The translations under genes and the position numbers were made by a program. The notes under the pieces were generated by a model, which worked only from the letters and a program-made list of their open reading frames with translations, had not been told where the DNA came from and searched no databases. Shown here piece by piece: positions 25,547 through 53,309 of a stretch of DNA of 64,000 bases. Source of the stretch: Massilia sp. MS-15. Its GTDB lineage: Bacteria > Pseudomonadota > Gammaproteobacteria > Burkholderiales > Burkholderiaceae_D. Where the stretch lies: the NCBI RefSeq assembly GCF_020176695.1, contig NZ_JAIWIA010000022.1:124001-188000 (forward strand), written 5' to 3'. The stretch's first letter is position 1. The number at the start of each line of letters is the position of its first letter.

Positions 25547-25654
25547 GTAGGGTGGGCGGGTAAGGCGCCCACGCGGTGATCGTTGTGATGTGAACCGTCG
25601 CACGAGCTGCTGTACCGTCATTCGACCGCGTGGGCGGCACGCCGCCCACCCTAC
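25547..25654. repeat. REP-like pair in inverted orientation (copy A)
   Basis: Left unit: GTAG (25547-25550), one base, then a hairpin GTGGGCG/CGCCCAC (25552-25558 and 25566-25572) with a 7-nt loop. Right unit is the mirror: hairpin GTGGGCGGC/GCCGCCCAC (25630-25638 and 25641-25649), one base, then CTAC (25651-25654). The two units face each other across about 57 bp. A GTAG foot plus hairpin, paired head to head, is the architecture of REP/BIME elements. It lies between the convergent metH and EAL/HDOD genes, where it could also act as a bidirectional barrier to transcription. Confidence 0.85.
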
Positions 25655-49651: not shown

Positions 49652-51112
49652 ATGCAATGGGAAGTCGTCATCGGTCTTGAGAACCACGTGCAGCTCACGA
49701 CCAACTCCAAAATCTTCAGCGGCAGCTCGATCCGCTTCGGCGCCGAGCCGAACACCCAGGCCAGCCCGGTGGACCTGGCGCTGCCGGGCGTGCTGCCGGT
49801 GTTGAACCGTGGCGCCGTCGAGCGCGCGATCCGCTTCGGCCTGGCCGTGGGCGCTAGAATCGCGCCGCAGTCGGTGTTCGCGCGCAAGAACTACTTTTAT
49901 CCGGACCTGCCCAAGGGCTACCAGATCAGCCAGTTCGAGGACCCGGTGGTCCAGGGCGGCACCATCAGCTTCGCCTTTGAAAAGGACGGCAAGCTGGAAA
50001 CGAAGACCGTCAACCTGACCCGCGCGCACCTGGAAGAAGACGCCGGCAAGTCGCTGCACGAAGACTACGCCGGCATGAGCGGCATCGACCTGAACCGCGC
50101 CGGCACGCCGCTGCTCGAGATCGTGTCCGAGCCGGAAATGCGCAGCGCGGCCGAAGCCGTGGCCTATGCCAAGGCCCTGCACTCGCTGGTGGTATGGCTG
50201 GGCGTCTGCGACGGCAACATGCAGGAAGGCTCCTTCCGCTGCGACGTCAACGTCTCGGTGCGCCCGATGGGCCAGAAGGAATTCGGCACCCGCTGCGAGA
50301 TCAAGAACCTGAACTCCTTCCGCTTCATGGAAGAAGCGATCCACTACGAAGTGCGGCGCCAGATCGAGCTGATCGAAGACGGCGGCAAGGTGATCCAGGC
50401 CACCCGCCTGTGGGATCCGGACAAGAAGGAAACCCGCTCCATGCGCACCAAGGAAGACGCGCAGGACTACCGCTATTTCCCCGACCCGGACCTGCCGCCA
50501 CTGGTCATCAAGCAGGACTGGATCGAGCGCGTGAAGGCCGACATGCCCGAGCTGCCGGGCGCCCTGCGCGCGCGCTTCACCGGCGACTACGGCCTGCCGG
50601 AATACGACAGCCTGGTGCTGACCTCCTCCAAGGCGATGGCGACCTACTACGAGGCCGTGGTGGCCACGGCCGGCAAGGAAAACGCCAAGGCCGCCGCCAA
50701 CTGGATGATGGGCGATGTTTCCTCGACCCTGAACCGCGAAGGCGTGGAGCTCGAGCAAGCGCCGGTGTCCGCCGCCCAGCTGGCCCTGCTGCTCAAGCGC
50801 ATCGCCGACGGCACCATCTCGAACAAGGCCGGCAAGGAAGTGTTTGCAGCCATGTGGGAAGCCGGGTCGGATGACGTGAACCTGGCCGACACCGTGATCG
50901 AACAGAAGGGCCTGAAGCAGATCTCGGACACGGGCGCCTTGGCGGCGATCGTTGACGAGGTGCTCGCCGCCAATGCCAAGTCGGTGGAACAGTACCGCGC
51001 CGGCAAGGAAGCCGCGATCAACGCCCTGATCGGCCAGACCATGAAGGCCTCGAAGGGCAAGGCCAATCCGGCCCAGGTGACCGAGCTGCTGAAGCAGAAG
51101 CTGGCCGGCTGA
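49652..51112 (+). CDS. gatB: Asp/Glu-tRNA amidotransferase subunit B
   Basis: Kinase-like and tRNA-binding subunit of 486 residues that activates the mischarged aminoacyl-tRNA and transfers ammonia. It starts [15 protein letters not shown] and contains the family signature [18 protein letters not shown], then [16 protein letters not shown]. The C-terminal YqeY-like domain ends near [13 protein letters not shown]. The stop codon is 1 bp from the left foot of REP-like copy C. Confidence 0.97.
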
Positions 51113-51113
51113 T

Positions 51114-51286
51114 GTAGGGTGGGCGGCTCCACCCGGCATGCTGGTCGGCCCCAGGCCTTGAGGCCGCCCACGCGGTGATCGTTGGCGGCTCCGCTCGCGC
51201 GCCGGATGATCTTGCCGCCAACGCTCACCGCGTGGGCGGCGCATGCACCGGCGTGATGCAAGGCGACGGGTGCAGCCGCCCACCCT
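51114..51286. repeat. REP-like pair with long hairpins (copy C), right end split by an IS
   Basis: Left unit: GTAG 51114-51117 and a stem GTGGGCGGC/GCCGCCCAC (51119-51127, 51163-51171) with a 35-nt tip. Right unit: stem at 51232-51240 and 51275-51283, then C and CT at 51285-51286. The two missing foot bases AC appear at 52487-52488 beyond the insertion sequence. The units are joined by a 27-bp inverted repeat with one mismatch (51163-51189 against 51214-51240). It lies between the convergent gatB and pyrE genes. Confidence 0.88.
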
Positions 51287-51299
51287 TGTATCTTGTTCT

Positions 51300-51470
51300 C
51301 ATTGGTGGTTAGCTACTGCCAATTGAGGTGAAGACCAGCTTGGGCCCACCCTTAAGGCTCGACCTTGGAAGGTAGATCAAGCCCTTCACCTCGTTCGCAC
51401 ACCATACCAAACACTGGACGGTAGCCAAGGGCTATGACCCTGTATGCACAAGGAGAGTGGGTGTGATGAT
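51300..51470 (+). ncRNA. Candidate bridge RNA of the IS110 element
   Basis: Three structured parts are visible. A 5' hairpin has ATTGG 51301-51305 with CCAAT 51319-51323. A first loop is closed by GAGGTGAAG (51325-51333) with CTTCACCTC (51384-51392) and GCTTG with CAAGC. It contains GCCCACCCT (51344-51352), identical to the left target flank, and GGTAG (51371-51375), whose GTAG pairs with the right flank CTAC. A second loop is closed by CACACC (51398-51403) with GGTGTG (51460-51465) and CACT with AGTG. It contains GACGGTA (51417-51423), identical to the right IS end, and ACAAG (51448-51452), complementary to the left IS end CTTGT. The order and sides of the guides match those known for IS621. 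Confidence 0.8.
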
Positions 51471-51490
51471 CGAGAACACAAGGAGAGACT

Positions 51491-52462
51491 ATGTTTTACC
51501 TGGGCGTAGATGTCGCCAAAGCCAAGCTTGACTGCATGCTGCTCGATACCACGAGTGGCAAACTGAAATCGAAGTCGCTGGCAAATACACCGGCCGGCTT
51601 TACCCAGCTGCTCGAATGGCTGGACAAACAGAAGGCGCTCAAGCCCCATGTAGTGATGGAACCGACCGGGATGTATCACGAGAACGCCGCACTGGCGTTA
51701 GCCGATGCAGGGCTGGTGGTATCGCTCATCAATCCAGCCCAACTGCGCGCATTTGCTCAAGGTTTGGGTGTCAAAACCAAGACCGACAAGGCAGATAGCG
51801 CCGTTCTGGCGCGCTTTGGCGCGGCTCAGAATCCCGCACCATGGCAGCCACCGTCACAGTCAGCGCGCCGGCTCAAGGCGCTGCTGACGCGACGAGATGC
51901 TGTCGCTGACGATTTACAGCGCGAACGAAACCGCCAGGAAGCAAATGATTTCAGCCCAGCTCCTGAAGCAGTTGGAGAATCGATCGCCCAATCGATCGTC
52001 TTCCACGAAGCTGAACTTAAACGACTGGAGAAAATGATTGCCGAGCATATCGACAACGATCCAGACCTGCGAAACAAAAAGGAACTTCTTGAGACCATTC
52101 CAGGTGTCGGTCCGCGCGTCTCGGGTCATATGACAGCCCTGTTTGCAGGGCGAACATTTGACCGTGCCGAGCAGCTCGCCGCTTACCTTGGCCTGGTACC
52201 TGTAGAGTGGCAATCTGGCTCGTCTGTACGTGGTCGACCGCGCATGTCCAAAGCTGGCCCTGCTTATTTGCGCAAGGTGCTGTACATGCCTGCCGTTGTT
52301 GCACGACGCTGTAACCCACACATCAAGGCACTCAACGACCGTCTGCTTACAAAAGGTAAGTCAAAGATGGCGGCCATTGGCGCCGCGATGCGTAAGCTCG
52401 CTCACCTCTGCTTCGGGGTCATCCACAGCGGTAAGCCCTACGATCCGAAATTTGCGATGTAG
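51491..52462 (+). CDS. IS110-family transposase (DEDD recombinase)
   Basis: A 323-residue recombinase that in this family works with a bridge RNA and cuts with a serine. The RuvC-like N-domain has the DEDD residues: D7 in YLGVDVAKAKLD, E57 in VMEPTG, and D99 and D102 in TDKADSAVLARF. A coiled-coil linker spans about residues 125-195. The C-terminal Tnp domain has IPGVGPRVSGHMTAL and LGLVPVEWQSGSSVRGRPRMSK, where S242 is the expected catalytic serine. All key residues are intact, so the protein looks active. Ribosome binding site AAGGAGAG precedes the ATG. Confidence 0.95.
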   Translation: MFYLGVDVAKAKLDCMLLDTTSGKLKSKSLANTPAGFTQLLEWLDKQKALKPHVVMEPTGMYHENAALALADAGLVVSLINPAQLRAFAQGLGVKTKTDKADSAVLARFGAAQNPAPWQPPSQSARRLKALLTRRDAVADDLQRERNRQEANDFSPAPEAVGESIAQSIVFHEAELKRLEKMIAEHIDNDPDLRNKKELLETIPGVGPRVSGHMTALFAGRTFDRAEQLAAYLGLVPVEWQSGSSVRGRPRMSKAGPAYLRKVLYMPAVVARRCNPHIKALNDRLLTKGKSKMAAIGAAMRKLAHLCFGVIHSGKPYDPKFAM

Positions 52463-52465
52463 GGC

Positions 52466-52486
52466 TTGACCGCCAAGACGGTATCT
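52466..52486 (+). promoter_or_regulatory. Right-end half of a junction promoter (-35 box)
   Basis: TTGACC at 52466-52471 lies in the right end of the IS. If the ends join in a circle through the CT core, it is placed exactly 17 bp from TATCTT (51289-51294) in the left end. Transcription would then start near 51300, at the 5' edge of the candidate bridge RNA. In the integrated form the two halves are 1.2 kb apart and the promoter is absent. Confidence 0.75.
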
Positions 52487-52491
52487 ACGCG

Positions 52492-53151
52492 TCAGACGCC
52501 GTAGCGGCTGCGGTAGGCGGCCACGGCCTCCTTGTGCGCGCCCAGCTCGGCGCCGGCATCGTTCGACAGGTAGGTGAACAGGTCGTCCAGGTTGGCGATC
52601 GAAATCACCGGGATGCCGAATTCCTGCGACACCTGCTGCACCGCCGAGTGCGCCGACAGCGCGTCGTCCTTGCCCGAACGCTCCATGCGGTCGAGCGCGA
52701 TCAGCACGGCGGCCGGTTCGGCGCCGGCGGCGCGGATCATGTCGACCGATTCGCGCACCGAGGTGCCGGCCGAGATCACGTCGTCGATGATCACGACCTT
52801 GCCCGCCAGTTTGGCGCCGACGATGGTGCCGCCTTCGCCATGGTCCTTGGCTTCCTTGCGGTTGTAGGCAAACGAGGTGTTGCGGCCCTTGGCGGCCAGC
52901 GCCACCGCGGTTGCGCTGGCCAGCGTGATGCCCTTGTACGCGGGTCCGAACAGCATGTCGAATGCGACGCCTGAATCGAGCAGGGTCTGGGCGTAGAACT
53001 GCGCCAGCCGGCCCAGCGTCGCGCCATCGTGGAACAGGCCGGCGTTGAAGAAGTACGGCGACTGGCGCCCCGCCTTGGTCGTGAAGTTACCGAACTTCAA
53101 TACCTCGGCCCCCACCGAAAATGCAATAAATTCCTGGCGCAAGTCGCTCAC
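52492..53151 (-). CDS. pyrE: Orotate phosphoribosyltransferase
   Basis: Makes OMP from orotate and PRPP in pyrimidine synthesis. The 219-residue protein contains KFGNFTTKAGRQSPYFFN, FGPAYKGITLASA, AYNRKEAKDHGEGG (catalytic loop) and the PRPP motif VVIIDDVISAGTSV. I chose the GTG at 53151, preceded by a good AGGAGAAG ribosome binding site; a longer frame to 53196 lacks one. The convergent IS element ends 5 bp after the stop. Confidence 0.96.
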   Translation of the reverse strand: MSDLRQEFIAFSVGAEVLKFGNFTTKAGRQSPYFFNAGLFHDGATLGRLAQFYAQTLLDSGVAFDMLFGPAYKGITLASATAVALAAKGRNTSFAYNRKEAKDHGEGGTIVGAKLAGKVVIIDDVISAGTSVRESVDMIRAAGAEPAAVLIALDRMERSGKDDALSAHSAVQQVSQEFGIPVISIANLDDLFTYLSNDAGAELGAHKEAVAAYRSRYGV

Positions 53152-53309
53152 GTGCTTCTCCTGAATGGTCGAAAGCGCGTATTGTAAACCGCCCACTTCG
53201 CGGGAGCGAAGCCGCGCCCGGCCGGGACCGTTCCGAAGAGCATCGAAACAGGCTACACTATCGGCCCGGTGCCACGTGCCGGCCCCTGCTTTCCTTCACC
53301 TCGAATCCC

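Follow-up and report, generated by a model that had tools for sequence, protein, structure and literature searches.

Does the non-coding left end of an IS110 element in a Massilia/Telluria genome encode a bridge RNA, and could such an RNA have directed the element into the palindromic repeat in which it is found? The question is raised by an insertion sequence of about 1.2 kb located between two genes that we take, from their translations, to be gatB (ending at 51112) and pyrE (52492–53196, minus strand). Positions refer to the window, i.e., the whole 64,000-nucleotide stretch of DNA analyzed, which belongs to genome G000 (4.5 Mb, 108 contigs). This genome has a single copy of the element at this identity, and the nearest named relatives for the element are Massilia sp. 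Leaf139 and Telluria aromaticivorans. The first-pass annotation had proposed a bridge RNA with four guide segments in two loops upstream of the transposase gene. The proposal is supported by the order of the four guides, which is that of IS621, by a conserved fold, by a target-loop guide that follows the insertion flank and by the closest solved relatives of the transposase, IS621 and ISCro4, both of the IS110 family guided by bridge RNAs; judged from its sequence, the element is very probably an IS621-type member of the IS110 group with a bridge RNA.

The transposase/recombinase (323 aa; 51491–52462, plus strand) contains the Pfam domains DEDD_Tnp_IS110 (PF01548) and Transposase_20 (PF02371). 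Alignment with IS621 (8wt6) identifies counterparts of all five catalytic residues, D7, E57, D99 and D102 (DEDD) and the serine S242, and the combination of a DEDD RuvC-like domain with a PF02371 domain carrying the conserved serine is that of the IS110 group. Among solved structures, the nearest are IS621 (8wt6, E = 2e-73) and ISCro4 (9t56, E = 1.7e-72). The gene is preceded by a non-coding left end of 204 nt (51287–51490) and followed by a right end of 22 nt (52463–52484), the long non-coding left end and short right end again being those of the IS110 group.

The element interrupts a 175-bp extragenic palindromic repeat (GTAGGGTGGGCGG...CCGCCCACCCTAC), the left part of which lies at 51114–51286 and the last two bases of which (AC) lie at 52487–52488. 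The left core dinucleotide CT is found at 51285–51286 (plus strand), and the right core CT forms part of the right target CTAC (52485–52488, plus strand), which completes the palindrome. When the flanks are joined at a single CT, the complete 175-bp element is restored, as is typical of the IS110 group, whose elements insert at a core dinucleotide and duplicate no further target bases. Uninterrupted copies in the same genome occur in a long form of 171–179 bp and a short form of about 108 bp. Since the joined flanks restore an intact repeat, the boundaries of the element are fixed independently of the guides. In relatives in which both flanks were found, the gatB–pyrE interval contains neither the IS nor the GTAGGGTGGGC repeat in the sequence inspected (for some of them, the gap ends only). 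The pyrE side was not found in other relatives, and therefore only the repeat copies of the same genome serve as empty sites. The repeat itself, with arms GTAGGGTGGGC/GCCCACCCTAC, is genome-wide, being present in the window at 25547–25654 and 51114–51286 and on many other contigs of G000.

The predicted bridge RNA occupies 51297–51466 (plus strand), as delimited by covariance model R1 and compensatory changes; its start would be near 51301, judging from the promoter described below. All guides and their counterparts are given on the plus strand. The left target guide (LTG) GCCCACCCT at 51344–51352 is identical to the left target GCCCACC together with the core CT (51278–51286), as the first-pass annotation had stated with coordinates that proved correct on re-reading. 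The right target guide (RTG) GTAG at 51372–51375 is, as had also been claimed, the reverse complement of the core and flank CTAC at 52485–52488. It is followed by the target-loop handshake bases AT (51376–51377; handshake bases as defined in PMC11208158), which complement donor positions 6–7 (AT, 52483–52484).

In the donor loop, the left donor guide (LDG) GACGGTAGC at 51417–51425 pairs with the donor GACGGTATC except at T7. The left donor GACGGTAT with the right core CT was read from the sequence at 52477–52486. The seven bases GACGGTA first reported at 51417–51423 do recur at 52477–52483, and the left donor guide is located where it had been placed, but it is mismatched at one internal position (guide ACGGTAGC, donor ACGGTATC), a difference conserved in close relatives. 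This G at 51424, opposite donor T7 at 52484, occurs in most of them, whereas G011 and G035 lack the G/T mismatch at donor position 7; perhaps it is a tolerated or a tuning mismatch. The right donor guide (RDG) had been described as ACAAG (51448–51452), the reverse complement of CTTGT at 51285–51289. That match holds, but the guide extends to AT-(GC)-ACAAG (51444–51452) and forms seven pairs, not five, a split match to the right donor CTTGTAT (core and left end, 51285–51291). As in elements of the IS621 type, the donor loop is thus complementary to the element's own ends through a split RDG, with the one LDG mismatch. Donor-loop handshake bases GA follow at 51453–51454; the G complements target C7 and the A is unpaired with C6.

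The probability of such an arrangement arising by chance was estimated from 100,000 dinucleotide shuffles of 51297–51470. None of them contained all four guides in order. Separately, the 9-nt LTG recurred in 325 (0.3%) and the LDG in 1,446, while the two short guides recurred in 47,866 and 23,918. The short guides are so frequent in shuffles that they mean little alone, and the leading evidence is the 9-mer together with the ordered set.

The two-loop fold that had been proposed stands for loop 1, which appears both in the minimum free energy (MFE) fold and in the consensus structure for nine homologues; the outer stem is less secure in loop 2, and the folding energy is not significant (z = −1.03). 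Thermodynamic stability alone gives no support for the fold; it is the compensatory changes that support it. A 5' stem-loop (51301–51323) shows two-sided changes in 5 of 9 pairs. The target-binding loop (51325–51392), backed by the MFE fold, the RNAalifold consensus and compensatory changes, consists of an outer stem (51325–51333/51384–51392), an inner stem (51338–51342/51378–51382) and an apical hairpin (51354–51366). The donor-binding loop (51398–51465) has CACACC/GGTGTG and CACT/AGTG stems and an invariant apical hairpin (51428–51441); its outer stem, drawn by eye, is less certain than the rest. All three features are on the plus strand, and their order, a 5' stem-loop and two stem-loops with internal loops, is that of IS621-type RNAs, with the donor-loop outer stem as its conjectural part.

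Conservation of the fold, suggested from the start as a check, was assessed on an alignment of nine left ends of related elements, covering the 5' stem-loop, the outer and inner stems of the target loop and both apical hairpins. Paired bases were found in 98.9% of cells, with two-sided changes in 9 pairs (20 two-sided cells), and 0 of 500 shuffles reached the observed cells paired, two-sided changes or covariation score. Sliding the partners by 1–3 columns lowered pairing to 25–51%, a control biased towards the fold because the structure was drawn partly from the same sequences; the compensatory changes carry more weight. RNAalifold independently recovered the 5' stem and the stems of the target loop. 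Small donor-loop pairs that this program also proposed (columns 124–136 and 156–168) were discarded, since they overlap the guides. A covariance model built from the nine left ends also finds the left end of a separate IS110 lineage, in G000 and in other genera (E ~1e-4 to 1e-6). In the window, Rfam gave no match at gathering score; weak microRNA matches, far below gathering scores, lie on the palindromic repeat and were rejected.

If the first loop is a target guide, it should change together with the flank. Searches by covariance model and by protein yielded 65 left-end/flank pairs, which represent 27 elements and 13 distinct guides, and among them loop 1 covaries with the genomic target flank. 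The LTG tracks the left flank across different targets (GCCCACCCT, GCCAACCCT, ATCCGCCCT, GTCGCTCCT, TTGCACCCT and GCGGCACTT). Guide and flank are identical for GCCAACCCT (G011), ATCCGCCCT (G213), TTGCACCCT (G093) and GTCGCTCCT (G517). In G741, the guide GCGGCACTT is accompanied by a TT core (loci L092, L097, L099, L101, L103 and L104); five of the six flanks are exact and the sixth has CT. Over the seven non-core positions the mean mismatch is 0.68, compared with 2.45 on average and 1.30 at the lowest among permutations (0/10,000 match), and with unique guides only it is 0.98 vs 3.03 permuted (0/20,000), values that are not strict probabilities because the targets are similar repeats and the elements share ancestry. 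Several of the mismatches are G-U compatible. A fixed C/A mismatch occurs in the ATCCGCCCT/ATCCGACCT group, and G510 and G591 are exceptions with three guide–flank mismatches each.

These data bear on the possibility that the shared 9-mer is only a fragment of the repeat, the left end having been captured from a palindromic repeat or merely resembling one. The 9-mer does belong to a repeat with 179 genome copies, and C-rich 9-mers recur in shuffles at the frequency given above for the LTG. Nevertheless, in all copies the core marks the precise end of the shared stretch, which sits in a loop between conserved stems and changes with the flank in elements aimed at unrelated sequences (GCGGCACTT, GTCGCTCCT, TTGCACCCT); the donor loop, moreover, corresponds to the IS ends, whose sequence is not that of the repeat. 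Mainly because of the guide–flank covariation, this explanation is considered refuted in the main and extremely improbable. Equally improbable is a left-end RNA that mainly regulates the transposase by antisense or leader control while the protein chooses the target. Such a role has a precedent in ISPpu9, an IS110-family element for which regulatory small RNAs at the ends are described (PMC8450116), but regulation would not make the loop track the target flank; it could be a further function of the bridge RNA.

The covariation of target loop and insertion site, characteristic of IS621-type elements, applies to the left target. The right target CTAC, with its RTG GTAG, is almost invariant, and consequently it is barely tested by covariation. 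A divergent IS110 element (L036; G025:C1:172807–173760) has by eye a right flank CTGACCC and an apparent RTG GGGTCAG, longer and different, a pair that seems to fit guide–target pairing on the right side; for its left guide to fit the flank, a one-base gap is needed. Another locus (L082; G028:C1:1462888–1463000) contains a partial left-end copy, then N, then a complete copy; two insertion sites have probably been joined there in the assembly.

How the bridge RNA might be produced and used could be outlined by analogy with IS621, from which transcription, RNA binding, chemistry and present-day activity are carried over. Excision would yield an element circle. The right end contains a -35-like box TTGACC (52466–52471) and the left end a -10-like box TATCTT (51289–51294), both on the plus strand, and the RE–LE junction rebuilds a predicted sigma-70-like promoter, TTGACC-17-TATCTT. 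Its spacing is 17–18 nt in 13/13 full elements compared, with the qualification that the -10 box was wrongly assigned by the script in one case (G093). This promoter, formed by the joined ends, would drive transcription of the left end into a bridge RNA some 170 nt long, which the recombinase would bind. The target loop (LTG and RTG) could then pair with the two strands of GCCCACC-CT-AC, an arm of the abundant host repeat, and the donor loop (LDG and RDG) with the ends of the element. Cuts beside the CT cores, handshake-aided strand exchange and resolution would result in insertion without further duplication.

The bridge RNA element could also be a fossil copy, now inactive in its host, which is a variant of the bridge RNA reading and not an alternative to it. 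This is unlikely, though less so than the two explanations weighed above. The single copy in G000 and the LDG mismatch at donor T7 point in this direction; against it, the ORF and all five catalytic residues are intact, the LTG match is exact, and multi-copy relatives, e.g., G050 and G016, share the LDG mismatch.

Bridge RNAs of this very layout have been known from IS110 elements since 2024 (PMC11208160, PMC11208158, PMC11187229), and a bridge RNA was predicted in 85.7% of the IS110-group elements examined (PMC11208160). It is well supported that the element adds to these systems and is not a new kind of system. With IS621 (PDB 8wt6; PMC11208160, PMC11208158) it shares the transposase architecture and catalytic DEDD+S residues, the left-end bridge RNA with the order 5' stem-loop, target loop and donor loop, the 9-nt LTG including the core, the 4-nt RTG, the CT core, the handshake bases, a REP-type target and the junction promoter. 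The split RDG with two skipped bases is likewise as in IS621, where nine RNA bases pair discontiguously with seven donor bases. It differs in protein sequence (identity about one third to two fifths, estimated from the alignment), in guides aimed at the Massilia palindromic repeat and in the LDG, which has a mismatched G opposite donor position 7. ISCro4 (PDB 9t56), compared as a protein only, is a homologous recombinase from a different host.

A DEDD recombinase and a guide RNA from a non-coding region are also common to the IS1111 group with its seekRNA (PMC11187229). IS1111 elements have the RNA downstream of the gene and subterminal inverted repeats, whereas the Massilia element has its RNA upstream and a 22-nt right end, and on these two features it is placed outside that group. 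ISPpu9, ISPpu10 and other REP-targeting IS (PMC1525189) likewise insert into repetitive extragenic palindromes, but the hosts and the repeats are different ones. Matches to the element in the plasmid collection were all partial (60–80% identity), the viral contigs searched contained no relative, and the literature search found no paper on an IS110 of Massilia (ISfinder was outside this search, and the element may already be named there). Bridge RNA and recombinase are both there as a complete natural pair, in a new lineage and with clearly readable guides, handshake bases and target, and the element provides an extra orthologue for a family of interest in programmable DNA insertion.

The relation between guide and host repeat was followed in eight genomes through the frequency of the target arms. 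For GCCCACCCTAC there are 179 copies in G000 (1 for the reversed control) and 498 in G050, the guides of both hosts matching it, and 0–10 elsewhere. For GCCAACCCTAC the counts are 73 in G011 and 0–3 elsewhere, and for ATCCG[AC]CCTAC they are 127 in G213, 73 in G377 and 1–9 elsewhere. The table of counts is near-diagonal, so that in most cases the repeat targeted by an element is one that its own host carries in large numbers. GCGGCACYTAC is found 25 times in G741 vs 9 for the reversed control and elsewhere is not above control, so that the backing from G741 is weak. It may be, with about equal chances for and against, that Burkholderiales IS110 guides follow the dominant extragenic palindromic repeat of the host, changing between species, and that separate lineages in one genome reach the same guide. 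Should this hold generally, the guide would be an adaptor that evolves quickly and fits the element to a safe landing site of high copy number. The series of close relatives, with guides and host repeats that change jointly, makes natural re-aiming of bridge guides testable in a small group of soil bacteria. A second IS110 lineage in G000 (C42:78927–79865; L003, L145) has 42% amino acid identity and a different RNA scaffold; it carries the same LTG and occupies the same position in a long-form copy of the same repeat.
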